Origin: Dyadobacter sp. 50-39
GTDB taxonomy: Bacteria > Bacteroidota > Bacteroidia > Cytophagales > Spirosomataceae
Assembly: GCA_001898145.1 (NCBI GenBank)
Contig: MKSR01000029.1
Location: 434,001 to 498,000, forward strand
Length of the DNA stretch: 64,000 nt
Reading direction: 5' to 3'
Shown: positions 16,738 to 53,112 of the stretch, one piece after another
Layout of the letters: each line of letters opens with the position of its first letter
Position numbering within the stretch: position 1 is the stretch's first letter
Notes under the pieces: generated by a model
Database searches by the model: none
What the model was told of the DNA's origin: nothing
Seen by the model: the letters and a program-made list of their open reading frames with translations, nothing else
Made by a program: the position numbers and the translations under genes

Positions 16738-16753
16738 CAACAAATTTATGCCA
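16738..16753 (-). promoter_or_regulatory. sigma-54-like promoter A (permease 1)
   Basis: Minus strand TGGCATAAATTTGTTG, preceded by C (CTGGCAT). The GG falls where a -24 element would sit, 47 bp upstream of the start codon. The -12 part TGTTG is a poor match to TTGCA. Confidence 0.5.
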
Positions 16754-16807
16754 GCCCAACCAACCCATTAACAATCAACACACTACACCCGCAAAACAGA
16801 CGACTAC

Positions 16808-16843
16808 TGTCCGAATTCGGACAACCCTGTTCACCGATGGACA
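16808..16843 (-). promoter_or_regulatory. tandem upstream palindromes A (TGTYC-N6-GRACA)
   Basis: TGTCCGAATTCGGACA (16808-16823) is a perfect palindrome; TGTTCACCGATGGACA (16828-16843) is a second copy exactly 20 bp away. The proximal centre is 64 bp from the -24 GG. The form and spacing suit paired dimers of an enhancer-binding activator. Confidence 0.72.
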
Positions 16844-16870
16844 ACGCAGAAAAAAGGAGATTGGCGGGCC

Positions 16871-18358
16871 TTACCAGCCCGTCCGGATACCAATATACCC
16901 GCCGGTTCTCCGGGTGAAAATATCACCGCGGTCGGTTGCCACGCGGGCGATAATGCTGGAATTTTTCCAGCCCGGCACTGCATATTGCGCGCTCAAAGCG
17001 GAAGAAAACTGTCCTCTCGACGGATCGAAGTCTGCACCCGGTGTGCCAAAGTTGCGGCTATAAGAAAGTCTCAGCGTGAGCGCCAGCGAACGGCCGATTT
17101 TACCCTGCGCGCCCAGGTAATATACATTCACACGGTTGTTTGGGAAAAACCGGTAATTACCCAGGTTGGACTGGTCCATATCCTTGCCGGGTATGATAAA
17201 CGGCGTACCCACCGTGCGGCCCTGGTACGACCACCCTTCCGAGTACTGGGTGTGGTTGAAATAGTTATCGGCGCCCTGGTATTTGCTTCCGGGAATGTAG
17301 AATTCAGAACCGGATTGATCTTTGGTCGTAAGAAATTCCAATGTCAGGTGTGTAAGCGCAACGCTGCTTCCCGCGCTGCCGTGCAGCAGTTTCAGGTTGA
17401 CCCCGTAAAGCCCGTCGGGAATATTCTTGAAAAGCATGCTTGAAACATCTTCAAAGGGATGCTGGTGGTACACAAAAAGCCGGTAATCGTCGAGCTTAGT
17501 TTCGAAGGCAATGTCATAGCTTCCCAAATGGTTGCCTACGCGGTAGCTGTCGAATGCACCATAACCATTCTTTTCAAACCAGTTTTTGGAAGTAAATGCG
17601 AAAACGACATTCGGGTAAATGGCCCACGACGACGGCAGCTCCCCGTTCACCGCCAGTTCCGGATGGAGTTTGAGGTAATCCGAATGCCCTGCCCACATAA
17701 CATTGTGGTTGAGGCCGGCGTAGAACTTGCTATGATGCTTGCCGAATCGCAGGTAAAGAAACTTCTGATGCAGCCTTACGCCCTGGATGTAGTCGGTATT
17801 GAACCACCCGTGGGCGAAGCCTGCGTGCACGGCCACGAAGTTCCCCGTGAATTTCAGCGGGGTAAATCCCACCGTCCCGATCTGCACCTTGGGTACCGGC
17901 AGCGCATTGCCCGACCCGCTGTAAAAGCCCGATGAAAGGGTGGTATCTCCCAGCCCCATCACTTCCCGCCTGCGCCCGGCCCACAGCTCCACGCGCTTGT
18001 ACCGCACACCCGCATGCGCCTCGGGTAACACAAAATCGAACTTGTTTTCCTTGTTATACACGCCCACCGGACTTACCCCGACACGCCAATCGAAATTTCG
18101 CGGGCGGTTGGTAAGGCTATCGTAAAATAGATAGTTCCTGCGCGCTGTCGCCTGTATCACGCCTGCGGTGGCGCGGTCGGGCACGGCACCGAACTGGTTG
18201 GTCCGTAGCCAGAAAGGAGTTTCGCCATTGGACGACAAATAAGCACCCGCCTCTACACTTGCTTCAAGATTAGACACGAGCGCATTTTTCTGGGCGAAAA
18301 GCGGCCCGGAAACCATTGTCACAACTGCAAAGACTTTGAAAATAAACGTTCTACACAA
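16871..18358 (-). CDS. Wzi family outer-membrane capsule assembly protein
   Basis: 495 residues with signal peptide MCRTFIFKVFAVVTMVSGPLFAQ. The mature start (VEAGAYLSSNGETPFWLRTNQFG) and the alternating aromatic strands to a C-terminal ...GGYIGIRTGW tryptophan are typical of an outer-membrane beta-barrel of the Caps_assemb_Wzi family. Wzi binds capsular polysaccharide at the surface in enterobacteria; the Bacteroidota versions are less studied. No ATG is available before the signal sequence, so TTG at 18358 is the likely start. It sits between permease 2 (91 bp) and the promoter of permease 1. No other capsule genes are in the window, so its link to the permeases is positional only. Confidence 0.82.
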   Translation of the reverse strand: MCRTFIFKVFAVVTMVSGPLFAQKNALVSNLEASVEAGAYLSSNGETPFWLRTNQFGAVPDRATAGVIQATARRNYLFYDSLTNRPRNFDWRVGVSPVGVYNKENKFDFVLPEAHAGVRYKRVELWAGRRREVMGLGDTTLSSGFYSGSGNALPVPKVQIGTVGFTPLKFTGNFVAVHAGFAHGWFNTDYIQGVRLHQKFLYLRFGKHHSKFYAGLNHNVMWAGHSDYLKLHPELAVNGELPSSWAIYPNVVFAFTSKNWFEKNGYGAFDSYRVGNHLGSYDIAFETKLDDYRLFVYHQHPFEDVSSMLFKNIPDGLYGVNLKLLHGSAGSSVALTHLTLEFLTTKDQSGSEFYIPGSKYQGADNYFNHTQYSEGWSYQGRTVGTPFIIPGKDMDQSNLGNYRFFPNNRVNVYYLGAQGKIGRSLALTLRLSYSRNFGTPGADFDPSRGQFSSALSAQYAVPGWKNSSIIARVATDRGDIFTRRTGGYIGIRTGW

Positions 18359-18449
18359 ATGATTCGGCTCGGTAAAGGTTTTCTCCGCAAGATAAATACC
18401 AGCGGGGGATTATTTGTTACCAGCGAATGAATTGTGCAGGAGAAGGCAG

Positions 18450-20867
18450 TTATTCGGTCCTAAGGGATTTACCCGGATCCATTAAGGCTGCTTTTACACT
18501 TTGGAACCCAACTGTGAACAGTGCCACTAGTAATGCCAGCAAGCCCGTGAGCGGGAAAATCCACCATTGAATACCTACCTGATAGGCAAAGCCCTGCAAC
18601 CATTGTCGCATGCCTAACCAAGCAACAGGCGTCGCGATCACGAGCGCAATGCATACCAGCGAGAGAAATTCTCCCGAGAGCATACCTACAATGCTGCCTA
18701 TGGAAGCACCGAGCACTTTTCTGACACCGATCTCCTTCGTACGCCACTCGGCGGAGAATGCTGCGAGCCCGAAAAGGCCAAGACAGGCAATCACGACGGC
18801 AATGCAGGTAAAATAGAGCACGATAGTGCCTGTGCGACGCTCCTTTTCGTAATTCTTCTGAAAATCCTGGTCGAGGAAAGAATAGGAGAACGGGATATCA
18901 GGGTTCAGTTTCTTCCAGGTCGCTTCCACAGAGGCCAGCACTGCCGCGTAGTCGCCGGTTTTGATGTTGGCGATAAAATACTGGTACTTGTCGGTAATGT
19001 TGGTCGTAAGCGCGTAGGGTTTAATGCCCTCGTGCAGGCTTCGGAAGTTGAAATCCTTCACTACTCCCACCACCTGCAAGCTCCTGCGCTGGCCGCCCAG
19101 TTCGAAAAACACATTTTTACCAATCGCGGAAGCTGCGTTATAGCCCAGTTCACGTACAGCCGTTTCGTTCAGGATAATGCTGCTGGAATCGCCGCTGAAT
19201 GCTTTGGTAAAAGAGCGGCCCGACGCCATTTGAAGGCCTAATGTCTCAATGTAATCATCACTGACGGTAGCGAAATGAATGTCGACTGCCTCTTGCACCG
19301 TCTTGTTTTCCGCGTAAAAAAGCAGGTCTTCAATATTTTCAATCCCCGGATAAACCGAACCGCTGGTTGCTTTTTCCACGCCCGGAATGCGCAGAACCTC
19401 TTCCCTGAATGTAGCGTAATTGGCAGATGCTTTCGCACTTCGGAACGGCACGACCAGCTTTTGCACCTTATCAAAACCAAGGTGCTGGTTTTGAAGGAAG
19501 GACAATTGCTGCCCGATCACGATCGCGCCCAGAATGAGGATAGTGGACACTGTAAACTGAAATACGACCAGCCCTTTCCGCAACAATACGGCCGATGCCA
19601 CATTCGCCAGCCTGCCTTTGAGGACACTTACCGGCTTGAAAGACGACAGGTAAAATGCCGGGTAAAGCCCCGCCACAACTCCCGTAACAAGGGTAATGCC
19701 TGTCATCCAGTACAGGAACGCCGGCTGATCCAACATTTCCAGCGATTTACCGGTCAGACTATTGAAATACGGCAATAGCAGCTGCACCAGCAGCACGGCC
19801 ACGGCCAGCGCCATGGTTGCCAGCATCATCGACTCGCCCAGAAACTGATACACCAGCGACTGCCTCACCGCGCCCATCACTTTGCGTACCCCTACCTCCT
19901 TCGCCCGCTTTTCGGACCGTGCGGTGCTGAGGTTCATAAAGTTGATACAGGCAATGAGCAGCAGGAATATCGCAATGGAGCCGAAAATGTAGAGGTAGGT
20001 CATGCTGCCATTCGGGGCAATCTCATGGCCGATATTGGATTTCAGATAAATGTCGGTTACCGGCTGGATAAACAGCTCTTTTGAAACGCCCAGCGCTTTC
20101 AGGTCGGCAGCGCCGTGGCGGTTCAGGAAAGGTGTCAGTTTGGATTCGAACCGGGCCGGATCGGCGCCCTCCCTGAGCTTTACATAAGTATGAAAAATAT
20201 TGATCATAGCCCAGTTATTCTGGCTCGCAACCCAGCCGCCCATATCCCCGTTCTGCATGGATAGGAAGAGACGGGCGTCAATATGCGATTTCATTTTGTT
20301 CCGGTAAACCCCGGTAACCGTATAGTCGAAATCGCCGAAAGTCAGTCCTACGCGGATTACCTTACCCACCGGATCTGCGTTTCCAAAGAGCTTTTCGGCA
20401 ACCGGTTCGGAAAGCACCATGGTGTTAGGGCGTTTCAGCGCGGTGCGGGCATTTCCGTATTTGAAATCGTAGGTAAACACATCGAAAAGCGTCGAGTCGG
20501 CATAGTAAGCATTCGTTTCATAAAAGGGTGCGATTTGCTTCCCATTCCGGTTTTCGAGCAGCATACGGTCAATGCCGGAAAATTTCAGCACACGCGTTAC
20601 CGATTCCACTTCCGGGAAATCGGTCCTGATCCCCTCCGCCATCGGCCCGGGCATTCCGGCCCATTGCTCATTCCGCGACTCCATCGCAATCCGGTACAGC
20701 CTGTCGGCCGCCCGGTGGTGTTTGTCGAAGCTAAGCTCGTCGGAAATATACAGCACGATCAGCAGGCAAGTCGCCAGGCCCAATGCCAGCCCCAATACAT
20801 TGATTGCCGTGTAGCCTTTGTGGCTCAACAAATTGCGCAGAGCGATTTTCAGATAGTTTTTCAGCAT
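18450..20867 (-). CDS. double FtsX/MacB-type permease (paralogue 2)
   Basis: 805 residues, starting MLKNYLKIALRNLLSHKGY. It groups with paralogue 12: both have a first periplasmic domain with SHIDA and a long HTYVKLREGAD/HYIRLRPGTD strand, then RKDLKIAGY or AADLKALGV before TM2. Coupling motifs are RAKEVGVRKVMGA and RTKEIGVRKVLGAS; the tail DPGKSLRTE differs from the usual NPVKSL. Last gene of the five-permease unit; its ATG follows the stop of paralogue 3 after only 4 bp, so translation is probably coupled. A 91-bp gap separates its stop from wzi, without a clear terminator. Confidence 0.92.
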   Translation of the reverse strand: MLKNYLKIALRNLLSHKGYTAINVLGLALGLATCLLIVLYISDELSFDKHHRAADRLYRIAMESRNEQWAGMPGPMAEGIRTDFPEVESVTRVLKFSGIDRMLLENRNGKQIAPFYETNAYYADSTLFDVFTYDFKYGNARTALKRPNTMVLSEPVAEKLFGNADPVGKVIRVGLTFGDFDYTVTGVYRNKMKSHIDARLFLSMQNGDMGGWVASQNNWAMINIFHTYVKLREGADPARFESKLTPFLNRHGAADLKALGVSKELFIQPVTDIYLKSNIGHEIAPNGSMTYLYIFGSIAIFLLLIACINFMNLSTARSEKRAKEVGVRKVMGAVRQSLVYQFLGESMMLATMALAVAVLLVQLLLPYFNSLTGKSLEMLDQPAFLYWMTGITLVTGVVAGLYPAFYLSSFKPVSVLKGRLANVASAVLLRKGLVVFQFTVSTILILGAIVIGQQLSFLQNQHLGFDKVQKLVVPFRSAKASANYATFREEVLRIPGVEKATSGSVYPGIENIEDLLFYAENKTVQEAVDIHFATVSDDYIETLGLQMASGRSFTKAFSGDSSSIILNETAVRELGYNAASAIGKNVFFELGGQRRSLQVVGVVKDFNFRSLHEGIKPYALTTNITDKYQYFIANIKTGDYAAVLASVEATWKKLNPDIPFSYSFLDQDFQKNYEKERRTGTIVLYFTCIAVVIACLGLFGLAAFSAEWRTKEIGVRKVLGASIGSIVGMLSGEFLSLVCIALVIATPVAWLGMRQWLQGFAYQVGIQWWIFPLTGLLALLVALFTVGFQSVKAALMDPGKSLRTE

Positions 20868-20871
20868 GATT

Positions 20872-23271
20872 TTATTCTGATCTTAACGATTTCACCGGGT
20901 CCAGCAGCGCCGCCCTGACAGCCTGATAACTGACCGTTGCCAATGTGACGAGCAATGCACCGCCTCCCGCTGCCGCAAAAATCCACCACGGAATGTCGGT
21001 GCGATAATCGTATTTTTTGAGCCAGTCGTTCAGGAAATACCAGGCGGTAGGTGCTGAGATCAGGAAAGAGATAATAACCAGGGCCACAAATTCGCGGGAT
21101 AGCAATGCCCAGAGGTTCGCCACCGATGCGCCCAGCACTTTACGCACACCGATTTCCTTTGTCCGTTGCTCTGCCGTGAAAGATGCCAGCCCGAACAAGC
21201 CGAGGCAACTGATAAAGATCGCCAGTGCGGCAAACACAGTAGCCAATGTGGCGATGCGCTCCTCGGCTGCGAATTTCAAGGCATACTCCTGGTCAGTAAA
21301 CTTGTAATCGAACGGACTGCCCGGATTGATTTCACGAAAAACAGCTTCTACTTTTTTGAGCGACTCGCGCAGCGGTAAACCCGGTTTCAGCTTCACGCTG
21401 ATCACATTCGCCCAGCCGTAATTGACCATAAACAAGGTAGGCTGTACCGGACTGAATGGCGAGCTCATCACCATGTCGCGGATCACGCCCACCACTTTAT
21501 AAGGATTTTCTCCCCATTTGACCGTCTGCCCGATGATCTCCGACGGCTTCTTGAATCCCATGTATTTCAATGCCGACTCATTGAGCACCATACCGCTCGA
21601 ATCGGTTGAAAACTGACGGGAGAAATCGCGGCCCTCGATGAACTGCCAGCCGACCGTCTTACCGAAATCGTGTGTGACGGCAATCGTACCAAAGTTGTCG
21701 TGCATGGCAGGATCTTTACCCGGCCATGTAAAACCGCCATTGTTGGAAGCGACTTGTGTTGACGGGGAAGACGAAGTAGCCATATCCACAACGGCGCCCG
21801 TCTCCAGTAGCGCCCCTCTGAGGCGATTGTATTGGTTGAACAGCTCCGGCGTATTGATCTCCACCGTGATCAGTCCGTTGCGGTCATACCCCACAGGCCG
21901 GTTTTTGGCATATTGAATTTGTTTGTAAACAATGGCAGTCCCGATGATAAGCGTCACGGAAACGGTGAATTGCAATACCACAAGCGCTTTGCGCGGCATG
22001 GCGGCGAAACGGCCCGCGCTGAATGTGCCTTTGAGCACTTTTACCGGCCTGAACGACGACAGATACAATGCCGGGTAACTGCCCGACAGCAATCCGGTGA
22101 TCAGGCAAAACAAGAGGCCCGCACCCCAGAAATACACATTGGAGAAGGGGAACTCCATGCGCTTGTCGGCCATCTCGTTAAATGCCGGCAATGCCAAGAC
22201 CACCAATACAATAGCCAGCAAAAAAGCGATAAAAACCACCAGGAAAGATTCACTGAAAAACTGGCTGATCAGTTGTCCGCGCTGTGAGCCTATCGCCTTG
22301 CGGATGCCTACTTCCTTGGCCCGTTTCTCCGATCGTGCGGTGCTGAGGTTCATGAAGTTGATCGACGCCAGCAACAACACAAATATGCCGATGATGCCGA
22401 ACAGCCATACATAACGGATCCGCGAGTCGGGCTGCCCTTTGTCATCCCAGGTCCCGTACAAATGCCATTTCGACATTGGGAGCAGGTATAGTTGCGGACC
22501 GAGGAACCTTGCTTCGGGCGTATGGTCCTTCTTAATACCCCTGATTTTCGCCGAAACCGCCTCGAAAGTGGTGTTCTTGCGGATCTGCGCCAGCAATTGC
22601 CATGAATTATTATTCCATTGTTCCTGGTCCCGCGCATTTTTCACCCAGTCCTGCGTGCTTACATACAGGCTCCAGGGGGCGATAAAGGTGAGATCGCGAA
22701 ACTCGGTATTGTAGGGCAGGTCTTCATAAACGCCTGTTACCCTCACATCCAGTCGGTTGTCCAGCTTCACAATTTTATCCATCGGGTTTTCCTGGCCAAA
22801 CAATGCGTCAGCCACTGATTTCGATAGCATGATCGAATTGCGGTCTTTCAGTCCGTCACGCGTGCCGCGCAACATGTGCAGGGCAAACATATGCGGAGCC
22901 TGCTCGGTCAGGTAGTTTCCTTTTTTGGTATACCTGTTATTTTGATAGGCCAGTACGTGCTCGTCCGTCCACGACGACTGGATCACGTACTCAAAATCGT
23001 CCATATGGTGCTCTTGCAAATACTGCCCCAGTGGATAAGAGGTATATTGTCCGTGATAGGTTTTCCCTTCATAAACTCCCTGCTCCATCACTTTCGCAAT
23101 GCGGTCGTAGTTTTCGTGGTAGCGATCGAACGCAAATTCATCATAAACCCAAAGGCCTATCAGTATCGCCACCGCCATCCCGACAGCGAGCCCACCGATA
23201 TTAATGGCCGAGTAACCCTTGCTTTTGACAAGGTTACGGAATGCGATTTTTAGGTAATTTCTGATCATCAT
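20872..23271 (-). CDS. double FtsX/MacB-type permease (paralogue 3)
   Basis: 799 residues (MMIRNYLKIAFRN; the second Met is an equally possible start). It belongs to a distinct subgroup with paralogues 5 and 9: GLWVYDEFAFDRYHENYDR after TM1, SMLWHLY-like block before TM2 (here LLPMSKWHLYGTWDDKG), and IVYKQIQYAKNRPVGYDRNG after TM5. Coupling motifs are RAKEVGIRKAIGS and RTKEIGVRKVLGAS, tail DPVKSLRSE. The subgroup-specific first periplasmic domain suggests a different cargo or partner from the other subgroups. 12 bp downstream of paralogue 4. Confidence 0.92.
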   Translation of the reverse strand: MMIRNYLKIAFRNLVKSKGYSAINIGGLAVGMAVAILIGLWVYDEFAFDRYHENYDRIAKVMEQGVYEGKTYHGQYTSYPLGQYLQEHHMDDFEYVIQSSWTDEHVLAYQNNRYTKKGNYLTEQAPHMFALHMLRGTRDGLKDRNSIMLSKSVADALFGQENPMDKIVKLDNRLDVRVTGVYEDLPYNTEFRDLTFIAPWSLYVSTQDWVKNARDQEQWNNNSWQLLAQIRKNTTFEAVSAKIRGIKKDHTPEARFLGPQLYLLPMSKWHLYGTWDDKGQPDSRIRYVWLFGIIGIFVLLLASINFMNLSTARSEKRAKEVGIRKAIGSQRGQLISQFFSESFLVVFIAFLLAIVLVVLALPAFNEMADKRMEFPFSNVYFWGAGLLFCLITGLLSGSYPALYLSSFRPVKVLKGTFSAGRFAAMPRKALVVLQFTVSVTLIIGTAIVYKQIQYAKNRPVGYDRNGLITVEINTPELFNQYNRLRGALLETGAVVDMATSSSPSTQVASNNGGFTWPGKDPAMHDNFGTIAVTHDFGKTVGWQFIEGRDFSRQFSTDSSGMVLNESALKYMGFKKPSEIIGQTVKWGENPYKVVGVIRDMVMSSPFSPVQPTLFMVNYGWANVISVKLKPGLPLRESLKKVEAVFREINPGSPFDYKFTDQEYALKFAAEERIATLATVFAALAIFISCLGLFGLASFTAEQRTKEIGVRKVLGASVANLWALLSREFVALVIISFLISAPTAWYFLNDWLKKYDYRTDIPWWIFAAAGGGALLVTLATVSYQAVRAALLDPVKSLRSE

Positions 23272-23283
23272 ATTGGCTTATGG

Positions 23284-25665
23284 TTATTCTCTTTTCAAAC
23301 TTTTAACCGGATCCGTCAGCGCTGCTTTGATACTCTGAAAACCGACCGTCAGCAATGCGATACCGGCTGCGAGGAAGCCCGCCCAGGCGAAGATCCCCCA
23401 ATGGATCTCGATCCGGTAGGCAAAATCCTGCAACCAGCGGTGCATGAAATACCATGCTGCCGGGCTGGCGATGACGATCGCAACGAGCACCAGTTTCAGA
23501 AAATCCATCGACAGCATAGCCGTAATGCCTGCCACCGAAGCACCGAGAACTTTACGCACGCCGATTTCCTTGGTTCGCTGCTCGATGGCAAAAATGGCCA
23601 ACCCGAACAGTCCGAGGCAGGACAGGCACACCGAAAGCAATGCGAAGGTGGTCGTCAGGCGTGTTGCGAGCTCTTCGCGCTGATAGAACTTCGCGATCTC
23701 CTCATCGTAGAAACTGTATTCAAATACATTCTCCGGAAACTGCTTCTGCCATACCGCGGCGATCCGGCTGATCGTCGATGCATTGACCTGGCTGAGCTTT
23801 ATCCCTGCCCAGCGGTACCGAGTCCGGTCCGCAAATACGATCGTCGGCTCGATGCCGGTGTATAGGTCGCCATTGTTGAAATCTGACAGCACGCCTACGA
23901 TGGTGCCGGTTTTGCCCGCGTCGCCTACGTGCAGCCGACGGTTCAATGCAGCTTCCGGGGATTTGAGGCCTAATGCCCGCACCAGTTTCCGGTTGATCAG
24001 CAGCTCATTCAATGTATCGGAATGGACGGGAATGCGGCCGGCAACCAGTTTCAGTCCATAGGTCTTTACAAAGTGCTCGTCCGCCGCCCTTGAACGCGCC
24101 ACGAATTTCTCCCAGTCCCGGTTCTCGAACCTGATCGTCCCGCCTCCACTGACCTGTACCGACGGGGCACTTCTGAAAAATGACAGGTCCGTCACATCCG
24201 GTAATGCCGAAAGTTCATTGCGCAATGCGGTAAGCTTGCTGGTTTCTGTTTCGGGCAAATTCAAATGCAGGATCAGGTTTTTGTCCATTCCCAAATCCTT
24301 GTTTTTCAGGAAGCGGGCTTGCAGGATGATCAGCGTAGACAATGCGATCAGGACGAATGAAATGCTGAATTGTGTCACGACCAGCCCTTTTCTAACCGAA
24401 AAGAAGCTTCTGTTGTGCTCTTTCAATAACCCCTTGATGGCTTTTACCGGATTGAACCTCGATATCACCCATGCGGGGTAAACGCCGGCCAACATCACGA
24501 CGAATAGCAGCAACGCGGCATAGAAAGCCAGTAAAAGCGGGTCCGTGAGCATATCAATACGCACATTCAAGCCCAGCCATTGACTGAGCATCGGTGCGAA
24601 AATCCAGGCGAATACCAGCGAAATGGCGCCCGCAGTGAGGGTCAGTAATGCCGCTTCCTGAATGAAAAGCCAGAAAACTTGCCCCTGCGAAACACCCAGC
24701 ACTTTTCTTACGCCTACTTCCTTACTGCGCTTGAATGCCTGGGCGGTGGAGAGGTTAATGAAATTGAAGCAGGCAATGAGGATAAGCAGTATACCCACTG
24801 TCGCCAAAACCAAAATCGTATTGTAATTGATTTTGCCGCCGTAAGCGATGTTGAAATGCACATCCGATAAATCCTGCAAATGGTAATGGAACACCTTACC
24901 GTCCGCGCCGTAGTACTTGCCGGCAAATGCAGGCATTTGCGCTTCGAATGCGGCCTTGTCTTCCGGCGAGCGGAGCGTTATGAAAGTCTCGCGACCGCTG
25001 TCGATCCAGCCCCAGTCTTCGTAACCGTATTCAGGGACGATTTTTTTCAATGTAGGAAGGGACACGAAAATATCCTGTTTAAAATCAGTTTCCTCGGGAT
25101 AATCGGCCACAACGCCGGCGATCACGAGGTTTTCCAGGTTGTTGGCCCGGATCACTTTGCCCATCGCGTTGTCGCTCCCGAAATACTTTTTCGCATAGCG
25201 CTCGGTCACCACCGCCTGCCCCGGTGCAGCCATCACGGAAGGGGCACCGCTGATCCATCGGTATTCGAATATTTTGAAGAAATCAGTATTCGTGAAAACG
25301 AGGTGGTCTTTTTCAAGGAACTTGCGTGAGGTCCCGTTCCGGTCCACGCGGATTGTCAATTCCTTGTGCGCTACATAAGCGGCGTTGCTGACGTAGCTGA
25401 ACTCTTTTTTCAATGTTTCGTGCAAAACATAAGCCGAGCCCCGCTCCTGCTCCACCGAACCGTCTTCGAGATGCAGGTCCACCACCACGCGGTAGGTCCT
25501 GTCGGCATTGCCGTGGTACCTGTCCACGCTGAGATGGTACTTCGCCAGCTGGAATATCACAATCGCGCCGGCCATCCCGACGGCCAGGCCAATGAGGTTG
25601 ATACCGGCATAAACCTTATGTTTCGCCAGGCTTCGGAAGGTAAATTTCAGATAGTTACGGATCAT
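23284..25665 (-). CDS. double FtsX/MacB-type permease (paralogue 4)
   Basis: 793 residues. It forms a subgroup with paralogue 10: the first periplasmic domain has FEYRWISGAPS/FDYKWLKGSPA and a YHLQDLSDVHFNIA block, and the first coupling motif begins with Ser (RSKEVGVRKVLGV) instead of Ala. TM1 is unusual in containing a Lys after the helix (IFQLAKYHLSVDRYH). Second coupling motif RTKEIGVRKVLGAS, tail DPVKSLKRE. It lies 22 bp after the frameshifted paralogue 5 and 12 bp before paralogue 3 in the same unit. Confidence 0.92.
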   Translation of the reverse strand: MIRNYLKFTFRSLAKHKVYAGINLIGLAVGMAGAIVIFQLAKYHLSVDRYHGNADRTYRVVVDLHLEDGSVEQERGSAYVLHETLKKEFSYVSNAAYVAHKELTIRVDRNGTSRKFLEKDHLVFTNTDFFKIFEYRWISGAPSVMAAPGQAVVTERYAKKYFGSDNAMGKVIRANNLENLVIAGVVADYPEETDFKQDIFVSLPTLKKIVPEYGYEDWGWIDSGRETFITLRSPEDKAAFEAQMPAFAGKYYGADGKVFHYHLQDLSDVHFNIAYGGKINYNTILVLATVGILLILIACFNFINLSTAQAFKRSKEVGVRKVLGVSQGQVFWLFIQEAALLTLTAGAISLVFAWIFAPMLSQWLGLNVRIDMLTDPLLLAFYAALLLFVVMLAGVYPAWVISRFNPVKAIKGLLKEHNRSFFSVRKGLVVTQFSISFVLIALSTLIILQARFLKNKDLGMDKNLILHLNLPETETSKLTALRNELSALPDVTDLSFFRSAPSVQVSGGGTIRFENRDWEKFVARSRAADEHFVKTYGLKLVAGRIPVHSDTLNELLINRKLVRALGLKSPEAALNRRLHVGDAGKTGTIVGVLSDFNNGDLYTGIEPTIVFADRTRYRWAGIKLSQVNASTISRIAAVWQKQFPENVFEYSFYDEEIAKFYQREELATRLTTTFALLSVCLSCLGLFGLAIFAIEQRTKEIGVRKVLGASVAGITAMLSMDFLKLVLVAIVIASPAAWYFMHRWLQDFAYRIEIHWGIFAWAGFLAAGIALLTVGFQSIKAALTDPVKSLKRE

Positions 25666-25687
25666 ATATATAGGTGTGTTTTAATAT

Positions 25688-44988: not shown

Positions 44989-47403
44989 TTATTCACTCCT
45001 TAATGCCTTCACCGGATTGGTCATCGCCGCCTTGATGCTCTGGAAGCTGATCGTCACCAGCGCGATCAGTACCGCCGCCACGCCCGCTGCCGCAAAAAGC
45101 CACCAGCTCACATTTACTTTATAGCTGAAATCCTGCAACCACTCATTCATGAAATACCATGCGATAGGCGACGCGATGACCAGTGCAATCACCACCAGTT
45201 TGATAAAATCAATGGAGAACAACCCGAAAATATTCATGGCAGATGCGCCTATGGCCTTCCGGATGCCCATTTCCTTTGTACGCGACTCGGCCATGAATGC
45301 GACTACGCCATACAAGCCAAGGCAACCGATAAAGATTGCAATGCCGCTCAGTATCCGGAACAATGAAAAGAGCTTTGCTTCCTTTTCATAGAAACTTTCG
45401 AGCGTCTGGTCATAGAAATTGTATTTGAACAAAAAGTCCGGATACGCTTCCGCCCAGGCCTTTTCAATCCGGCCGATCTGTTCGAGACCGGCACTTTTAT
45501 CCAGTTTCACGCTCAATGTCCGGTAGTTGTCGCGCATGGTGGTCATCACGCACGGGATAATCTCCTGGTGGAGCGTGTAGGTATTAAAGTTTCTCACCAC
45601 GCCCACCACCGGCAGCTTCAGGTCGCTCCCACCGATGGCGAGCCTTTTACCAATCATATCCTGGGGATTCTTGAAACCCATTTTCCGGGCGAATGCCTCA
45701 TTTACAATGTACTCGCGAATCGTATCCGATGGCAGGTAAAGCCTTCCTGCGGCCAATTTCAAACCATATGTATTGAAATAGGCGGTATCTGCGGGGCGCA
45801 TTACCACGTCGAAATCCAGAAATTCGGCATCGTTTTCATATTTGAAGCCCGTCTGCCAGTTGCTTCTCGACATGGGAGTAAATGCGCTGTAAGCAATGGA
45901 TTTGACACCTGGGATCTGAGCCACCTTCTGCCGCAATGTTTCCAGCTTCCCTTCTCCCTGGTCGGGAACACCGATCGTCACGATTTCATCCTTTTGAAAA
46001 CCCAGATCCAGCGAGTTGAAATATTTCATTTGGCTATATGCGATCAGAGTGCCTATCAGGATCACCTGCGAAATAGAGAATTGCAGCACGATCAGGCCTT
46101 TGCGCAGGTTGGACTGCCCGCTTCCCGCCGTGCGCATTTTACCTTTCAGCGCCAATATGGGCTGGTAGCCAGACACGACCAATGCAGGATAGAAGCCGGC
46201 AAGAAAGGTAGTCACGACCGTGAGAACAACGCAACATAGCAGGATATAGGGGTCCTGAAAGAACACTACATTCTCCGACTGAATATTGAGAATGCCGGCG
46301 ATGTACGGCAGCAACAGCTGCGCCGACACCAGCCCAAGCAATACTGAAAGCAGGGTAATAATCCCTGTTTCGGAGAAATATTGCCGCAGCAGTTGTCCGC
46401 GTGTGCTGCCCAGCACTTTGCGTACGCCCACCTCGCGCGAGCGGCGCAGCGCCTGAGCGGTAGCCAGGTTTACAAAATTCACGCAGGCGGTGATCAGAAT
46501 AAAAACGCCCACCAGCGACATCGCCCAGATCATCCCCTTGCTGATCGAGCGGTTGGCATAGTTGCCTATTTTTGTAGCAAAATGAATGTCTTTAACCGGC
46601 TGTAAGACGAATTTGAGCTTCGCGGCATCTTTGGGATCCCGGTATTTTTTATTGAATGCCAAAAGTTGCTGTTCAAATTGCGCTTCGCTGACATTTTCCG
46701 GCAGCATCAGGTACATTTGCCCGCCTCCGTAGCTGGAAACCCAGTCGTCCCAGTTGGTAAATGCGCCAAACTCTTTCAAAGAAGCAAACGACAGCATTGT
46801 TGTGAATGGCAGGCTGGTGGTTGCGGGAGGGTCGGCTACGACGCCGGTTACTACAAAATCCATTTGATTACGCACCCGGATGCTTTTCCCCATGGGATCT
46901 GCATTGCCGAAAAACTTGCGGGCTTGCCCCTCCGTCAGCACCACAGAGCCCGGATTTTTGAGGGCCTGCGCGGGCGAACCTTTGAGCCATTTGTAATCGA
47001 ACATCCGGAAATACTCGGGGCCTGTAAATGCGATACTATACCCCGGATCAGAAAACTTCTTTTTCTCCGAACCCTGTGTGATTGTGATGAGCGTTTCGCG
47101 AAGGCCATAAGTACAGGTCACCTGGTTCCTGATTTCCGGAAAATCGTTGCGCAATGCCGCCAACGCCGGCAGGGGGATACCCGCACTAAATCCTTTCTCT
47201 CCGTCCTCTATATTATGGTTGAGCAGCCGGTAAATCCGGTCAGCATGCCGGTGATGGCTGTCGAAGCTTAGCTCATACCTGACCGTAAAAAAGATCAGCA
47301 AACAACAGGCAAGGCTCATCGTCAGCCCGGTAATGTTGATTAAAGTAAAGTTCCAGTTGCGGCGAAGGTTTCTGAGTGAGGTTGTGAGATAGTTTTTGAT
47401 CAT
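44989..47403 (-). CDS. double FtsX/MacB-type permease (paralogue 10)
   Basis: 804 residues. The N-terminus MIKNYLTTSLRNLRRNWNF departs from the usual YLKIALRNL. Pairs with paralogue 4 in the first periplasmic domain. Coupling motifs RSREVGVRKVLGS and RTKEMGIRKAIGAS (Met in place of Ile/Val), preceded by YGVVAFMAESRTKE where most have FGLAAFTAEQRTKE. Tail NPVKALRSE. Lead gene of a two-permease unit under promoter D. Confidence 0.92.
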   Translation of the reverse strand: MIKNYLTTSLRNLRRNWNFTLINITGLTMSLACCLLIFFTVRYELSFDSHHRHADRIYRLLNHNIEDGEKGFSAGIPLPALAALRNDFPEIRNQVTCTYGLRETLITITQGSEKKKFSDPGYSIAFTGPEYFRMFDYKWLKGSPAQALKNPGSVVLTEGQARKFFGNADPMGKSIRVRNQMDFVVTGVVADPPATTSLPFTTMLSFASLKEFGAFTNWDDWVSSYGGGQMYLMLPENVSEAQFEQQLLAFNKKYRDPKDAAKLKFVLQPVKDIHFATKIGNYANRSISKGMIWAMSLVGVFILITACVNFVNLATAQALRRSREVGVRKVLGSTRGQLLRQYFSETGIITLLSVLLGLVSAQLLLPYIAGILNIQSENVVFFQDPYILLCCVVLTVVTTFLAGFYPALVVSGYQPILALKGKMRTAGSGQSNLRKGLIVLQFSISQVILIGTLIAYSQMKYFNSLDLGFQKDEIVTIGVPDQGEGKLETLRQKVAQIPGVKSIAYSAFTPMSRSNWQTGFKYENDAEFLDFDVVMRPADTAYFNTYGLKLAAGRLYLPSDTIREYIVNEAFARKMGFKNPQDMIGKRLAIGGSDLKLPVVGVVRNFNTYTLHQEIIPCVMTTMRDNYRTLSVKLDKSAGLEQIGRIEKAWAEAYPDFLFKYNFYDQTLESFYEKEAKLFSLFRILSGIAIFIGCLGLYGVVAFMAESRTKEMGIRKAIGASAMNIFGLFSIDFIKLVVIALVIASPIAWYFMNEWLQDFSYKVNVSWWLFAAAGVAAVLIALVTISFQSIKAAMTNPVKALRSE

Positions 47404-47508: not shown

Positions 47509-47544
47509 CGTCCGCTTTCGAACAGTTTTGTACGTGTTCGAACA
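47509..47544 (-). promoter_or_regulatory. tandem upstream palindromes D (TGTYC-N6-GRACA)
   Basis: CGTCCGCTTTCGAACA (47509-47524) has one end mismatch; TGTACGTGTTCGAACA (47529-47544) is a second copy exactly 20 bp away. The proximal centre is 64 bp from the -24 GG, the same as at promoter A. Confidence 0.65.
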
Positions 47545-48082: not shown

Positions 48083-50497
48083 CTATTCGCTCCGCAGCGA
48101 CTTCACCGGGTTCATTAGCGCGGCTTTGATGCTTTGGAAGCTGACGGTGGCAATGGCGATAAGCACGGCTGCCAGAGCGACGCCAATGAATACAAGCGGG
48201 CTGATTTCAATGCGATAGGGGTAGTTGTCCAGCCAGAGCTGCATGAAATACCAGGCGGCAGGCGTCGCGATCAGGATCGCGATGAGCACGAGTTTTACAA
48301 AATCTTTGGACAGTACAAATACCAGGCTGCCGATGCTCGCGCCGAGCACCTTGCGAACACCGATTTCCTTCGTGCGCTGTTCCATGACGATCAATGCGAC
48401 GGCGAACAACCCCAGGCAAGACAATATCACCGCAACCGACGACGCCAGACTGAAAACCTGAGAAAGTCTTTCCTCTTCCTTGTACCACGCGTTGGTATTT
48501 TCATCCAGGAACGAGCCGATAAATTCAGATTCCGGCGTAATTTCCTTCCACACGCTTTTCAGCTTTTCCATGGAGGATGCCAGGCCCTGCGGCGTGACAC
48601 GCACAAAAATGTATCCGATCCCATCCGTATGCGAGAGGTACATGGTAATCGGCTTCTTTTCTGCCTTGGAAGAATAAAGATTGAAGTCAGGAACGACACC
48701 GATGATCTGGTGCCTGATGCCGGCAGTGTCGGTCTGAAAGAACTTGCCCACAGGGTTCTTTTCGCCAATCGCTTTGGCCATGCTTTCGGTAATGATCACC
48801 CTTCCCATCGAATCGGTCGGATAAGCTGGGCTGAACTCCCTTCCGTCAATCAGCTTGATATTGAGGGTTTTCAGATAATCGTAACTGATATGCAGCCAAT
48901 CCGTTTCCACTTCTCGCTCTTTGAAAGTAAAACCGACGGAACTTCGCGAACTGCTTCTATCCAGGCCCATTCCCAGGTTCACGGCGGAACCGGTAATGCT
49001 CACGACATTAGGATCATTGGCGAGGCGGTTACGCATTCTGCGCAGCGCGGTTTGCCCATTCACCTTCCTACCCACCGGAATGCTGATCACCTCTTCCTTC
49101 TGGAAACCGAGCGGCTGCTTACGAAGATGGTCTACCTGCTGCACCGCGATGATCGTGCAGCATATCAGCAGGCTCGAAAGGGCAAACTGGGCCACGATCA
49201 GAGAATTTCTTAATATGCCCGGCTTTTTGAGGGATACTTTCCCCTTTAAAACCTCCACCGCATTGAATTTCGACATTTGCGCCGCGGGATAACCGCCCGC
49301 CACCAGCGTAACAAACAAGAACAACCCAACGAGCAACGCCATTTTATCGGGCTCGAAAATGTATTCCAATGTCAGCTTAGATCGGAAAGTTGCATTGAAT
49401 GCAGGAAGCAAAAGAATCGCCAGTACGATGCCCGCCAGAAAACCCAGAAAACATATAACCCCGGCCTCTCCCCAAATCTGAAAGAAAAGCTGCTGTTTCA
49501 AGGCACCGAGCGACTTGCGTACACCCACCTCCCGTGCGCGGATGAAGGATCGTGCGACGTTGAGATTGATAAAGTTGATGCAGGCGATCAGCAGGATGAA
49601 AATGCCGATGCCCATCAGCGCATATACGAGCGAGCCCTCACTGGCGCCCGATATTTCCCGGTTGAAATGCACGTCTTCCAGTTTCTGAAGGCGAAGTGCA
49701 TACAAATCACCCCGTTCGTCGGGCTTGGCGCCTTTCTTTTTAAGCTGAGTGATGGTCTCTGCGAAATATTTGGCGGTGAAAGGTTTCAGTTTCTTTTCGA
49801 ATGCAAGCTTGTCGACACCCGGTTTCAGTTTAAGAAAGATATTATGCGAGAATGCATCCCATTGATCCTTCTGCTGCTGGTAATTGTCCACATTCTCGCT
49901 GCGTATGAATGCATCGAATTGTAGCGAAGAATTTTCCGGGAAATCCGCAAGTACCGCGTTTACCACATATTCTTTTTTGTCCCCATCCAGGCCCAGCTGG
50001 ACGCGCTTACCCATCGGGTCTTCCTCTCCAAACACAGCCTTAGCCATGTGCTCTGTCATCACAATGCTGCTCAGGTCCTGCAAAGCGGTTTGTGCATTGC
50101 CTTGCTTAAATGCGAACGAGAAGATTTTGAAGAAGTCAGGTTCGGTAAACTTGATATTCTTGTCGAGGAACTTGCCTTTGTATTCCACTACATCCGACCC
50201 GTTGACTACCCGTGCTATGGCTTCAATATCGGGATATTCATCCTTCAATGCGGGTGTGATCGGGAATGGCATCGAGGCCGCGCGATTTACACGCTCAGGG
50301 TCATTGGAAAAGAAATAGGGTTCGTATATCCGGTCTTTGTCGGCGTGAAAGTTGTCATACGACAATGCGAAGTAGGCCGTCAGGAACAGAAACACGCTTA
50401 CACAGAAAGCGACCGACAACCCAACGATATTAATGAAGGCATAACCCTTGCTCTTCCAAAGGTTACGCAACGCGATTTTGATATAGTTCTTGAACAT
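48083..50497 (-). CDS. double FtsX/MacB-type permease (paralogue 11)
   Basis: 804 residues from ATG 50497 (MFKNYIKIALRNLWKSKGY). The frame extends 42 codons upstream into the end of permease 12, but those residues are a shadow of that gene. Distinctive: NLNVARSFIRAREVGVRKSLGA instead of NLSTARSxKRAKE, and FAVALIVMEQRTKEIGVRKV in place of FGLAAFTAEQ. The second periplasmic domain has MGLDRSSSRSSVGFTFKERE, a Ser/Arg stretch not seen in others. Tail NPVKSLRSE. Second gene of the unit under promoter E, 8 bp after permease 12. Confidence 0.92.
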   Translation of the reverse strand: MFKNYIKIALRNLWKSKGYAFINIVGLSVAFCVSVFLFLTAYFALSYDNFHADKDRIYEPYFFSNDPERVNRAASMPFPITPALKDEYPDIEAIARVVNGSDVVEYKGKFLDKNIKFTEPDFFKIFSFAFKQGNAQTALQDLSSIVMTEHMAKAVFGEEDPMGKRVQLGLDGDKKEYVVNAVLADFPENSSLQFDAFIRSENVDNYQQQKDQWDAFSHNIFLKLKPGVDKLAFEKKLKPFTAKYFAETITQLKKKGAKPDERGDLYALRLQKLEDVHFNREISGASEGSLVYALMGIGIFILLIACINFINLNVARSFIRAREVGVRKSLGALKQQLFFQIWGEAGVICFLGFLAGIVLAILLLPAFNATFRSKLTLEYIFEPDKMALLVGLFLFVTLVAGGYPAAQMSKFNAVEVLKGKVSLKKPGILRNSLIVAQFALSSLLICCTIIAVQQVDHLRKQPLGFQKEEVISIPVGRKVNGQTALRRMRNRLANDPNVVSITGSAVNLGMGLDRSSSRSSVGFTFKEREVETDWLHISYDYLKTLNIKLIDGREFSPAYPTDSMGRVIITESMAKAIGEKNPVGKFFQTDTAGIRHQIIGVVPDFNLYSSKAEKKPITMYLSHTDGIGYIFVRVTPQGLASSMEKLKSVWKEITPESEFIGSFLDENTNAWYKEEERLSQVFSLASSVAVILSCLGLFAVALIVMEQRTKEIGVRKVLGASIGSLVFVLSKDFVKLVLIAILIATPAAWYFMQLWLDNYPYRIEISPLVFIGVALAAVLIAIATVSFQSIKAALMNPVKSLRSE

Positions 50498-50505
50498 ATT
50501 GTTCC

Positions 50506-52962
50506 CTATTCTGTTTTCAATGATTTCACAGGATTCGTAACGGCCGCCTTGATGGCCTGGGTGCTGACGGTCAGCAATGCGATGACTACCGCGAGTGCGC
50601 CGGCTCCGGCAAACATCCACCATTGCAAGCTGATTTTATAGGCGAAATCGTCGAGCCACCGGTTCATCAGGTACCACGTGAGCGGGGTGGCTATCACAAT
50701 GGAAATGACAACCAATTTTACAAAATCGCCCGACAGGAGGCCCACAATGTTAGTGATGGAAGCCCCAAGCACTTTTCGCACGCCTATTTCCTTGATCCGT
50801 TGCTGGGCGGCAAACGTAGCCAGGCCGAATAGTCCAAGGCAGGAAATCAGGATAGAAATGATGGTAAATGCATTGACCAATCTGGAAGTCCGCGCATCGG
50901 CGGCATAGTTCTTCTGAAAATCCTCATCCAGGAATGTGTAGGAAAATGGTTCGTCGGGGATGAGCGACTTCCATTTGCTTTCTATCAATGGAATGGCCGC
51001 AGCCGCATCTTTGCCGGCGATATGTGCAATCAGGTAATTGTAACTCGGGTCCATATTGAGGAAAAAGGCATAGGGTTCGATCACCTTGTGCAAATCCTGG
51101 AAATGGAAGTCCTTTACCACGCCTACCACCTCCACCGAGCCCGGTGTGTCGCCGCCATTGTTGAACAGAAACTTCTGCCCTACCGCCTTATTGAGCGGCA
51201 CGTTGAATTTCCGTAGCGTAGCTTCATTCACCACGACTTTATAGTTGGTATCAGCCGGAAATTCCTTAGAAAACATCCTTCCCGCGACGGGTTTAAAGCC
51301 CATCGTTTCCATAAAATCCGGGGCTACCCAGTTGGTTTTGATCACATTATCGTCGTCCACAGTCTGTCCGGGCAAATAAACCGACATGTCGCTCGGGTTG
51401 AGAATGCCGGGATAATAGGCCGTACCGGACGCCGAGGTAATGCGACTATCCTGCAAAAGTTCGCTTTTCAATGCGGTGTATGCCTGCCGTGCCTCCTGGC
51501 TGCGGAAAGGGATGACGATCTGCTGGTCTTTTGTAAAACCGAGCGGCTGATCTTTCATAAACCGGATTTGCCCCTGAATGACAATCGTAGCCACCACCAG
51601 GCCGATCGAGATCACAAACTGGAACACCACCAGCCCGCGACGCAGCGTCGTAGCTGATACCGAGTTAACAAACCGTCCTTTGATCACATCCAGCGGATTG
51701 AATACCGACAGATAAAATGCAGGGTAGCTTCCGGCCAGCACGCCGGTTACAAGCGCGAGCAGCACAAATCCCCCCACGATCTTCGGTTGGAGGAGCTCTT
51801 GCACATCCAGCGATTTGTCGGCCAGCTGGTTGAAAAACGGCAACAGCAGCACTACCAGCACCATCGCTACGGCCAGGCCAAGCAGTGTGAGCACCATGGA
51901 TTCGCCCAGGAACTGCCCGACCAAACTGCCCTTGCCGGCTCCCATCACTTTACGCATGCCTACCTCAGCCGCCCGTTTCGCGGAACGCGCCGTGGCGAGG
52001 TTCATAAAATTGATGCAGGCGATCAGCAAAGTGAATACTGCGATGCAAGCGAGAACGTACAGGTAAGTGGAGCTCGTCGTAGCCGATACGATGCGGTCGA
52101 TCTGGTTGAAAAGGTGAATATCGCGGACTGGAAGCAGTGCCAGTATCTTGTCATATCCCGCGATTTTGAGGTCTTTACGCGCATATTTTTCGATGAATGC
52201 AGGCAACTTCGCTTCGAACGCGGCTGCATCCGTACCTGGCCGTAGGCGGATGTAGTGGTAAAACATATTGTTGGCCGTGAAATTGAGATCCGGCTGCCGA
52301 AGGTAGTCGCCTATCCATCCCACTTTGAAAGACACAAAGTAATTGGCATCAATATGCGAACGGGCGCTTTCATCGCGAAAAACGCCGGTCACTTTGAAAT
52401 TCTCGTTATGCCCCGTCTTTCCGCCTACCTTGATAGTGCGGTTCAACGCGGGTTCGTTGCCGAAAAGCTTTTGCGCCAGCACGTCGGAAAGAACGATCGA
52501 ATGCGGGTCATTAAGTGCAGTCCGTTTGTCCCCTTCCAGAAACTGATAGGTAAAAACATCAAAGAATGTGGAATCTACGTGCGTTCCTTTGGGCTCGTAG
52601 AATGAAAGCGGGCTCTTTCCTGATTGCTCCACGGTTAGCAGCGCCTTGTCTTCCAGGAAATTTTGCCACAGCCTCGTCGCCTGCACCACTTCGGGATACT
52701 CGGCTTTCAGCGCCTGCGCGTAAGGTGCCGGCGCGCGGGGATTGTCCATTTTCTCTCCATTGGGCTGCACGTTTTCAGAGCGTACCAGGTAGAGGTCATT
52801 CACATGCTCCTGATGCTTATCGAACGAAACCTCGCTCAGAATGTAAAGCAGCAGGAGCATGCAACACGTCATACCGACCGAGAGGCCGAAGACATTGATA
52901 ACGGAGAACATCTTGTTTTTCAAGACGTTCCTCCAAGCAATTTTCAGATAGTTTTGGATCAT
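50506..52962 (-). CDS. double FtsX/MacB-type permease (paralogue 12)
   Basis: 818 residues, the longest intact copy. Start MIQNYLKIAWRNVLKNK. Subgroup with paralogue 2. After TM1 it has SEVSFDKHQEHVNDLYLV; the first periplasmic domain ends in LLPVRDIHLFNQIDRI. First coupling motif RAAEVGMRKVMGA (Ala-Glu and Met are unusual), second RIKEIGVRKVLGAS. Tail NPVKSLKTE. Lead gene of a two-permease unit; the 205-bp gap upstream holds promoter E, the palindrome and the terminator of permease 13. Confidence 0.92.
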   Translation of the reverse strand: MIQNYLKIAWRNVLKNKMFSVINVFGLSVGMTCCMLLLLYILSEVSFDKHQEHVNDLYLVRSENVQPNGEKMDNPRAPAPYAQALKAEYPEVVQATRLWQNFLEDKALLTVEQSGKSPLSFYEPKGTHVDSTFFDVFTYQFLEGDKRTALNDPHSIVLSDVLAQKLFGNEPALNRTIKVGGKTGHNENFKVTGVFRDESARSHIDANYFVSFKVGWIGDYLRQPDLNFTANNMFYHYIRLRPGTDAAAFEAKLPAFIEKYARKDLKIAGYDKILALLPVRDIHLFNQIDRIVSATTSSTYLYVLACIAVFTLLIACINFMNLATARSAKRAAEVGMRKVMGAGKGSLVGQFLGESMVLTLLGLAVAMVLVVLLLPFFNQLADKSLDVQELLQPKIVGGFVLLALVTGVLAGSYPAFYLSVFNPLDVIKGRFVNSVSATTLRRGLVVFQFVISIGLVVATIVIQGQIRFMKDQPLGFTKDQQIVIPFRSQEARQAYTALKSELLQDSRITSASGTAYYPGILNPSDMSVYLPGQTVDDDNVIKTNWVAPDFMETMGFKPVAGRMFSKEFPADTNYKVVVNEATLRKFNVPLNKAVGQKFLFNNGGDTPGSVEVVGVVKDFHFQDLHKVIEPYAFFLNMDPSYNYLIAHIAGKDAAAAIPLIESKWKSLIPDEPFSYTFLDEDFQKNYAADARTSRLVNAFTIISILISCLGLFGLATFAAQQRIKEIGVRKVLGASITNIVGLLSGDFVKLVVISIVIATPLTWYLMNRWLDDFAYKISLQWWMFAGAGALAVVIALLTVSTQAIKAAVTNPVKSLKTE

Positions 52963-52995
52963 GGCTGGTCATGGATTGCATTCCGGTTATTGGAA

Positions 52996-53011
52996 ATGAA
53001 TAATTGTACCA
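52996..53011 (-). promoter_or_regulatory. sigma-54-like promoter E (permeases 12 and 11)
   Basis: Minus strand TGGTACAATTATTCAT, preceded by T. TGG and the N4 spacing fit; -12 part TTCAT. 47 bp from the start codon. Confidence 0.5.
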
Positions 53012-53060
53012 ATCGTCAAAAGCCAATCTAAAACACTCATAATAAACCTGTTGACTCAAT

Positions 53061-53100
53061 AAAAAGACAACAAGAGTGTCCGAAACTGGACACTCTTGTT
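53061..53100 (-). terminator. terminator after permease 13, containing palindrome E
   Basis: 13-bp perfect stem AACAAGAGTGTCC (53069-53081) / GGACACTCTTGTT (53088-53100), loop GAAACT. On the minus strand it is followed by GTCTTTTT. The inner part of the stem is the regulatory palindrome itself. Confidence 0.75.
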
Positions 53101-53112
53101 CGATATTGCAAT
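53077..53112 (-). promoter_or_regulatory. upstream palindrome E (TGTYC-N6-GRACA) with a half-site
   Basis: TGTCCGAAACTGGACA (53077-53092), centre 75 bp from the -24 GG, as at promoter B. Exactly 20 bp further a TGTTC half-site (53097-53101) is followed by a degenerate right arm. Confidence 0.7.

Follow-up and report, generated by a model that had tools for sequence, protein, structure and literature searches.

Our analysis of a 64,000-nucleotide stretch of Dyadobacter sp. 50-39 DNA (bases 434001-498000 of contig C29 in a 7.72-Mb genome; hereafter the window) revealed that its permease units, runs of genes for proteins of about 800 amino acids with MacB_PCD and FtsX domains, are preceded by palindromes at helically phased distances upstream from a TGG-type promoter element. 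The same enhancer/promoter arrangement is found in many related bacteria, and it is near certain that the phased palindromes are a real regulatory signal. Sequence comparisons further suggest that they probably mark an enhancer-activated sigma-54 regulon, with an NtrC-type bacterial enhancer-binding protein (bEBP), here called bEBP-A and encoded divergently from one of the permease operons (the hub operon, unit F), as the leading candidate activator.

A preliminary description of this DNA had placed a 16-bp palindrome, TGTYC-N6-GRACA, at all five units with an upstream gap inside the window (units A to E; Table 1). Four of these sites are exact (16808, 30708, 35650, and 53077), whereas the site at 47509 (CGTCCGCTTTCGAACA) departs from the 16-mer by one outer base and fits the core used for the window, GTYC-N6-GRAC. 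Together with 16828, the exact sites make five matches, against 0.21 expected; none of 100 shuffles reached five, and none of the five lies in a gap inside a unit, as had been stated. When one mismatch was allowed, the window alone gave no significant excess (9 matches versus 6.4 expected, with 16 of 100 shuffles reaching 9). Three units have a second palindrome 20 to 21 bp further upstream (16828, 30729, and 47529).

The promoter element YTGGYRC, described for all five units, fits at four; at 16753 the sequence reads CTGGCAT, with a final T instead of C, and the shorter TGGYR is present at five of five. Distances from palindrome center to GG of 64, 75, 53, 64, and 75 bp were reproduced. Expressed as gaps, measured throughout from the end of the 14-base palindrome core to the T of TGG, they amount to 55, 66, 44, 55, and 66 bp for units A to E. 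Among 30 genus loci (own included) comprising the head of unit B and its best matches, 21 have a palindrome and an element with a measurable gap, which is always 53 to 55, 66, 75, or 87 bp; the remaining nine lack the palindrome, the element, or both. The sequence TGGTGCATAATTTGAC is found in 9 of 10 genus loci (own included) that share the two palindromes of unit B.

Phased palindromes in this genome and in related bacteria

A survey of the whole genome with the core GTHC-N6-GDAC, up to 260 bp upstream, found it at 10 of 11 padR genes, at 14 of 41 examined permease genes (unit heads and operon followers pooled; the upstream region of C29:403601 was excluded), and at the hub operon. Permeases without it include operon followers, those located behind padR, and some head-like genes; at C10:30101 the core is one letter off. 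In 23 of the 25 genes with a palindrome, a TGG-type element lies 44 to 87 bp away. The chosen gaps are 44, 53 to 55, and 64 to 66 bp, with second palindromes at 74 to 76 and 86 to 87 bp; choices made by eye were 64 on C15 over a nearer, poor 49, and, at C10:97663, 53 in preference to 75. Against a ladder of 44 + 11k bp whose centers derive from the five window sites, all 18 other measured units of this genome agree to within 2 bp (17 if the alternative on C15 is chosen) and 12 of the 18 to within 1 bp.

The padR genes allowed the comparison to be extended to other genomes. For one PadR protein of the genome studied here, the six best-matching named relatives belong to Dyadobacter (85 to 92% identity). 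The sample comprised at least 80 loci from a PadR-alignment scan of named genomes, plus order-mates and the genome studied here; it gave 154 usable upstream regions, which formed 139 clusters nonredundant by 8-mer overlap (L269, L294, L299, L300, and L304 were dropped for lack of a recognized start, and L275 for lack of a flank). GTYC-N6-GRAC is present in 92 of the 139 clusters, versus 0, 3, 2, and 4 for spacers of N4, N5, N7, and N8, 1 for the reversed motif, and 0 for the inverted order. With broader letters and the smallest gap taken, palindrome and promoter occur together in 99 of the 139, a scan that includes a few spurious elements (at 31, in our own genome, and at 157). The gaps fall into bands near 44, 54, 65, 75, and 86 bp in 96 of 99 cases when the nearest is counted and in 152 of 160 when all are counted, the bands having been drawn after seeing the data and covering 47% of the range.

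Outside our own genome, 85 of 90 padR clusters lie within 2 bp of the ladder (binomial P = 1.7e-23) and 56 of 90 within 1 bp, for which 27% is expected (P = 4.5e-12); outside the genus, 70 of 75 are within 2 bp. The Rayleigh R of the nearest gaps is 0.87 (n = 70), while the highest of 5000 random sets reached 0.42. The steps of 11 bp given in the preliminary description correspond to a period of about 10.6 to 10.95 bp. Phase is looser when measured to the start codon (R = 0.50) than when measured to the promoter (R = 0.89; n = 89), and paired palindromes are 20 to 22 bp apart in 19 of 20 cases. An inverted repeat upstream from a promoter and on a fixed helical face is what is expected of an upstream activating sequence, and all of this is observed here. 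In the padR promoters of Emticicia, some Spirosoma, and Runella zeae (L181 to L183, L187, L190, L200, L208, and L209), GTAC-N6-GGAC occupies the same place, a half-site variant that constitutes a natural test of activator specificity.

Candidate activator and promoter type

The hub operon runs past the end of the window, where it encodes an ABC ATPase (L017:2666-3343) and a membrane fusion protein (MFP; L017:3547-4854). Its promoter lies about 2 kb outside the window, with palindromes at L017:4980 and L017:5000, 20 bp apart, and the element TTTGGCATAGTGATTGG on the minus strand. The gene for bEBP-A (L017:5168-6538) diverges from that of the MFP, and the two palindromes lie in the intergenic region that they share. 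bEBP-A has a receiver (PF00072), a sigma-54 AAA+ domain (PF00158; E value of 1.1e-67, Walker A motif GENGTGKT at 184), and a Fis-type helix-turn-helix (HTH_8). The gene that follows it, at first taken as its kinase, encodes a GH127 hydrolase. A histidine kinase match (23 to 26% identity) follows bEBP-A in 6 of 18 hub neighborhoods, which suggests that bEBP-A is part of an ordinary two-component system with its kinase gene elsewhere in this genus.

Of 30 genus loci compared (own included), 29 were readable, L117 being the exception. The bEBP-A/hub intergenic region has two palindromes in 28 of the 29 and one in the other, and the hub element is at a constant distance from the palindromes in 28 of 29; in the 29th the stretch is too short, and L135 of the same genome has the hub element at that distance. 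The distance from the palindromes to the start codon of bEBP-A, in contrast, varies from 147 to 289, and the constrained spacing is therefore that to the hub promoter. Palindromes were also found at the hub in 11 of the 18 neighborhoods, and bEBP-A is divergent from it in 9, with a separation of 2.2 kb in L315. Across 194 genomes of the order, relatives of bEBP-A (E value of 1e-125 or better) occur in 72 of 76 MFP-positive versus 26 of 118 MFP-negative genomes; among the 37 padR-positive genomes, bEBP-A and the MFP are each present in 36.

The preliminary inference that the permeases form one enhancer-activated regulon, probably of the sigma-54/NtrC type, gains support from this neighboring activator, from the palindromes in its intergenic region, from the presence of one rpoN gene, and from the core at 10/11 padR and 14/41 permease genes, the 99/139 paired clusters, and the 85/90 clusters on the ladder. 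If the promoters depend on sigma-54, bEBP-A would probably be their activator. That another dimeric activator, or a second protein which we call bEBP-B, binds the palindrome at promoters still served by sigma-54 seems unlikely. The genome holds ten strong matches to sigma-54 activators, bEBP-B also adjoins an OEP-ABC-permease operon with a kinase, and bEBP-A was not seen beside the hub in half of the 18 neighborhoods; the pair of palindromes at 28 of the 29 genus loci that could be read and the way in which bEBP-A tracks the hub and padR families nevertheless favor bEBP-A. For bEBP-B in particular, no palindrome/promoter pair was found by the strict pattern in the operon DNA examined, and no core lies within 260 bp upstream of the first permease match, C36:31986. 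This operon (L049; C36:30000-42000) encodes OEP, an ABC ATPase with 53% identity to that of the hub, and permease parts, followed by bEBP-B (L049:4714-6294) and a histidine kinase. A relative of bEBP-A with 45 to 48% identity is present in about 43 of 48 genus genomes.

The promoters themselves have sigma-54 geometry with an unusual -12 element (TTTGT or TTGG). The logo of the padR class (99 sequences) is tTGGCAnnnnATTTGTT, in which GG at -25/-24 is followed after ten bases by G at -13 (GG-N10-G); GG was fixed by the search pattern, -13 was allowed to be G, T, or A, and -26, -22, and -12 were free. T is found in 92% at -26, A in 86% at -22, and G in 92% at -13. The -12 element is clearer in the padR and hub promoters than in the window, and in several other genera and families the sequence at the hub promoter is TGGCAC/T-N5-TTGGCA/T; in unit A, TTTG is one base nearer to GG than in the padR class. 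Since the GC of TTGCW, expected at -13/-12 of sigma-54 promoters, is largely lacking in the padR class and absent from the five window promoters, we call the promoters sigma-54-like. Their dependence on sigma-54 is very likely. A strict canonical pattern, TGGCAYNNNNNTTGCW, has 22 sites in this genome versus 15 for the reversed control. At L364, L369, and L380, canonical TTTGGCA-N6-TTGC[AT] stands outside long open reading frames, before an open reading frame, and has no palindrome; these are likely to be ordinary sigma-54 promoters of this genome. The genome thus probably contains -12 elements of the canonical kind in addition to the variant, but the search, being conditioned on TTGC, shows no distribution.

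Housekeeping sigma-A promoters of Bacteroidota have TTTG at -33 and TAnnTTTG at -7, usually with 17 to 23 bp between TTG and TA, and helical phasing occurs with sigma-70-type activators too. TGGYR could hence be part of a sigma-A promoter with the palindrome as a class I/II activator site, many padR promoters do carry TACATTTA or TACAAAT further downstream (near -9), and the -12 half is atypical. We regard this as less likely again: the distance from TTG to TA would be about 15 bp, below the usual range; ACA is missing from that position in 8 of 9 non-padR promoters examined, and the hub element lacks such a box; GG-N10-G with TGGCA is sigma-54 geometry; and the palindrome distance varies over four turns.

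A further layer may exist in the padR operons. Downstream from -12, padR-class promoters have ACA near -7 in 63 of 99 cases and an AnnTAAT-like block in 61 of 99, and TTTG-N4-ACA is present in 59 of 99; between -17 and +8, a conserved ATTTGTTcTACAaat...AAnTAAT block overlaps -12 to +8. This block is a possible PadR operator. An operator in the form of the inverted repeat TTTGT-N2..4-ACAAA was discarded, being present in only 23 of 99. None of nine non-padR promoters, hand-picked from twelve with a measured gap, matches the ACA or AnnTAAT pattern of the padR class; C40:220722 has ACA at a shifted place. A palindrome alone cannot distinguish activator from repressor, and with this second conserved element in the padR operons one might regard the palindrome as a repressor operator that is phased for looping to a second operator at the promoter. 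Such a reading is improbable: the nine non-padR promoters have palindromes without the AnnTAAT block, and it is the TGG element with which the palindrome is in phase in every class.

Several observations weigh against a sigma-54 regulon under bEBP-A. The bare palindrome is hardly enriched genome-wide (34 sites versus 29 for the reversed control), and its count was rejected as evidence; what is nonrandom is its position, not its frequency: 14 of the 34 exact sites precede a permease, padR, or hub gene by no more than 300 bp, and near the other 20 only two TGG-type elements were found within 110 bp, at about 93 to 96 bp, beyond the range seen elsewhere. The apparent unit heads C10:88245 and C36:31986 and the padR gene C40:826538 have no palindrome, at the heads C1:26464 and C1:169317 the pattern used detects no element to accompany the palindrome, and the pair is absent from 40 of the 139 padR clusters. 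The 2-bp tolerance of the ladder was picked after the other gaps had been seen. No hub palindrome was found in 7 of 18 neighborhoods, and no bEBP-A adjacent to the hub in 9 of 18; two of 48 genus genomes have only a 59% relative of bEBP-A, and the co-occurrence numbers and binomial tests are confounded by shared ancestry. RpoN is present in 185 of the 194 genomes of the order, and because it is near universal, its presence or absence was uninformative as a test of sigma-54 control. The -12 position departs from TTGC in the 99 padR promoters (T in 78%, C in 4%), and the -12 halves of the window are weak, as had been noted, and best at promoter B: only 30642 has G at -13 (1 of 5), and none of the five has GC.

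Also to be counted here is the loop of bEBP-A, which reads GAFTDA instead of GAFTGA in 30 of 30 genus loci (own included), with D at that position in all 8 readable loops of the 18 hub neighborhoods. bEBP-B, the second permease-linked activator, has GAFTDA as well and is 46% identical to bEBP-A; the eight other strong bEBPs of the genome have GAFTGA (seven) or GSFTGA (one). GAFTGA is called invariant and essential in sigma-54 activators in a passage of PMC12316311. This deviation of the loop either cautions against the model or is the feature of greatest interest in it. It is conceivable, though on balance doubtful, that GAFTDA coevolved with TTTGT or TTGG at -12 as a separate activation code of a permease-linked activator lineage. 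Chance combined with shared ancestry, to which the near-background frequency of the bare palindrome and the possible duplication of paralogous units along with their promoters might point, has a negligible probability, being contradicted by the nonredundancy of the 139 clusters, the near absence of the control spacers, the Rayleigh and ladder tests, and the roughly five discrete values of the distance, which copying alone does not explain.

Permease units and known systems

The best-scoring NCBIfam model for all five unit heads is that for the acidobacterial duplicated orphan permease (ADOP; TIGR03434), at 231 to 330 bits. No match in the genome reaches the curated cut-off of 622.3 bits (the best has 367.7), and the window permeases are ADOP-like and not ADOP by this cut-off. 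The genome has 59 TIGR03434 matches, fragments included, and about 40 permeases. The likeness to ADOP and to PadR-ADOP pairs extends to the length of about 800 amino acids, two stretches each of MacB_PCD and FtsX (seen in 18450-20867, the only full-length window permease scanned with Pfam), and a padR gene beside some; the difference is that all matches of this genome score below the curated cut-off. To our knowledge, no regulation of ADOP has been described. For two Dyadobacter species, 28 and 33 genes annotated as ADOP are given in a passage of PMC11573002. The features of the window are listed in Table 1.

TABLE 1 Permease units, palindromes, and sigma-54-like elements in the window
Feature	Positions	Strand	Remarks
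Unit A, single ADOP-like (MacB/FtsX duplicated) permease	14305..16704	-	Start taken at ATG, 16704
Unit A sigma-54-like element CTGGCATAAATTTGTT	16739..16754	-	Gaps of 55 and 75 to two palindromes
Unit A tandem palindromes	16808..16843	-	16808-16823 and 16828-16843, 20 bp apart
Unit B permease genes	18450..30579	-	28162-30579, split 25688-28116, 23284-25665, 20872-23271, 18450-20867
Unit B sigma-54-like element CTGGTGCATAATTTGA	30628..30643	-	G at -13; gaps of 66 and 87
Unit B tandem palindromes	30708..30744	-	30708-30723 and 30729-30744 (core GTTCCATATCGAAC)
Unit C, two permease genes	30762..35582	-	33171-35582, 30762-33143
Unit C sigma-54-like element TTGGTACGAATTTGTT	35592..35607	-	Gap of 44
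Unit C palindrome	35650..35665	-	Exact 16-mer
Unit D, two permease genes	42527..47403	-	44989-47403, 42527-44902
Unit D sigma-54-like element TTGGTACAGGATTTAA	47440..47455	-	Gaps of 55 and 75
Unit D tandem palindromes	47509..47544	-	47509-47524 (one mismatch) and 47529-47544 (GTAC half-site variant)
Unit E, two permease genes	48083..52962	-	50506-52962, 48083-50623
Unit E sigma-54-like element TTGGTACAATTATTCA	52997..53012	-	Weak -12; gap of 66
Unit E palindrome	53077..53092	-	Exact 16-mer
Hub operon (unit F), window part	53168..63549	-	Four permease genes and a small gene

The split permease of unit B consists of overlapping frames on the minus strand (26695-28116, N-terminal; 25688-26965, C-terminal), an apparent frameshift or assembly error. 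Unit B ends with a Wzi-like (capsule assembly) gene (16871-18358, minus strand) directly upstream from the palindromes of unit A, and two genes for extracytoplasmic function (ECF)-type sigma factors lie near the permease cluster (9634-10200, minus strand; 40245-40796, plus strand).

The hub resembles MacAB and the darobactin exporter DarBCD: its ATPase scores best against DarD and its MFP against DarC, both below the equivalog cut-offs, and the MFP passes the general RND_mfp subfamily cut-off. It differs in that one ATPase/adaptor pair stands against about 40 permeases. The genome has one hub-type ATPase at 100% identity, the next being at 53%, and one MFP at an E value of 1e-60 or better; from this ratio it is plausible that many permeases share one ATPase and adaptor.

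Regulons of sigma-54 and bEBPs of the NtrC, ZraR, or PspF type likewise have palindromes upstream from a TGGCA-type -24 element, an activator composed of receiver, AAA+, and Fis domains, and rpoN. Here, however, the sites are closer and quantized in helical turns, the -12 element is TTTGT or TTGG, the activator loop is GAFTDA, and the targets are dozens of dispersed permease genes. Upstream-site distances elsewhere are given as 100 to 150 bp in a passage of PMC7057263 and as mostly 100 to 250 bp in one of PMC6615313, which also gives the Clostridiales consensus TTGGCATNNNNNTTGCT.

The link of sigma-54 to the FtsX-like permease family is prior art. A promoter survey based on position-specific scoring matrices (PLoS One 2025; PMC12316311) reports, in the passages found, sigma-54 at FtsX-like permeases (COG0577) in Bacteroidia as "first evidence," and so concerns the same gene family, phylum, and sigma factor as the present work; those passages name no activator, upstream site, phasing, PadR, or shared ATPase for these permeases. 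A term search of PMC3162934, on sigma-54 as a controller of the bacterial exterior, found nothing on this subject. In titles and abstract openings of the open-licence literature, no such regulon, enhancer, activator, or phasing appeared among the matches listed.

Proposed mechanism and significance

We propose that the palindromes (TGTYCG-N4-CGRACA) are upstream activating sites for one NtrC-family protein, bEBP-A, encoded about 2 kb beyond the window's right end, which would bind at one or two sites, usually 20 to 22 bp apart. Bound bEBP-A would oligomerize, loop the short intervening DNA, and remodel the closed complex of RNA polymerase and sigma-54 seated on the TTGGCA / TTTGT(T) or TTGG element. 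If the distance between GG and +1 is canonical, palindrome centers would lie at about -77, -87, -98, -108, and -119, all facing the same side of the helix, presumably because a loop of this length has no room for a half turn. A single signal might thereby switch on the hub operon (MFP, ABC ATPase, and permeases), the orphan duplicated permease units, and the padR-permease operons, in which a local PadR repressor may bind the extra conserved element overlapping -12 to +8. The many permeases may combine with the common ATPase and adaptor into MacB-like exporters that are interchangeable. As to the signal itself, envelope or export stress is a guess.

If, in addition, the doubtful reading of GAFTDA and the unusual -12 element as a separate activation code were correct, bEBP-A would work, perhaps only, at permease promoters, although other bEBPs of the cell employ the same sigma-54 polymerase where the promoter has TTGC; both the enhancer and the promoter would then contribute to specificity, and a single ATPase/adaptor hub would be coordinated with tens of interchangeable permeases. 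A candidate activator and its site are now named, which makes the regulon testable. The many promoters and genomes compared here amount to a natural demonstration that sigma-54-type enhancer sites keep one helical face over about five successive turns. For the large and unexplained expansion of orphan MacB/FtsX permeases, the model would offer a regulatory logic in which one switch and a shared motor may serve alternative channels.

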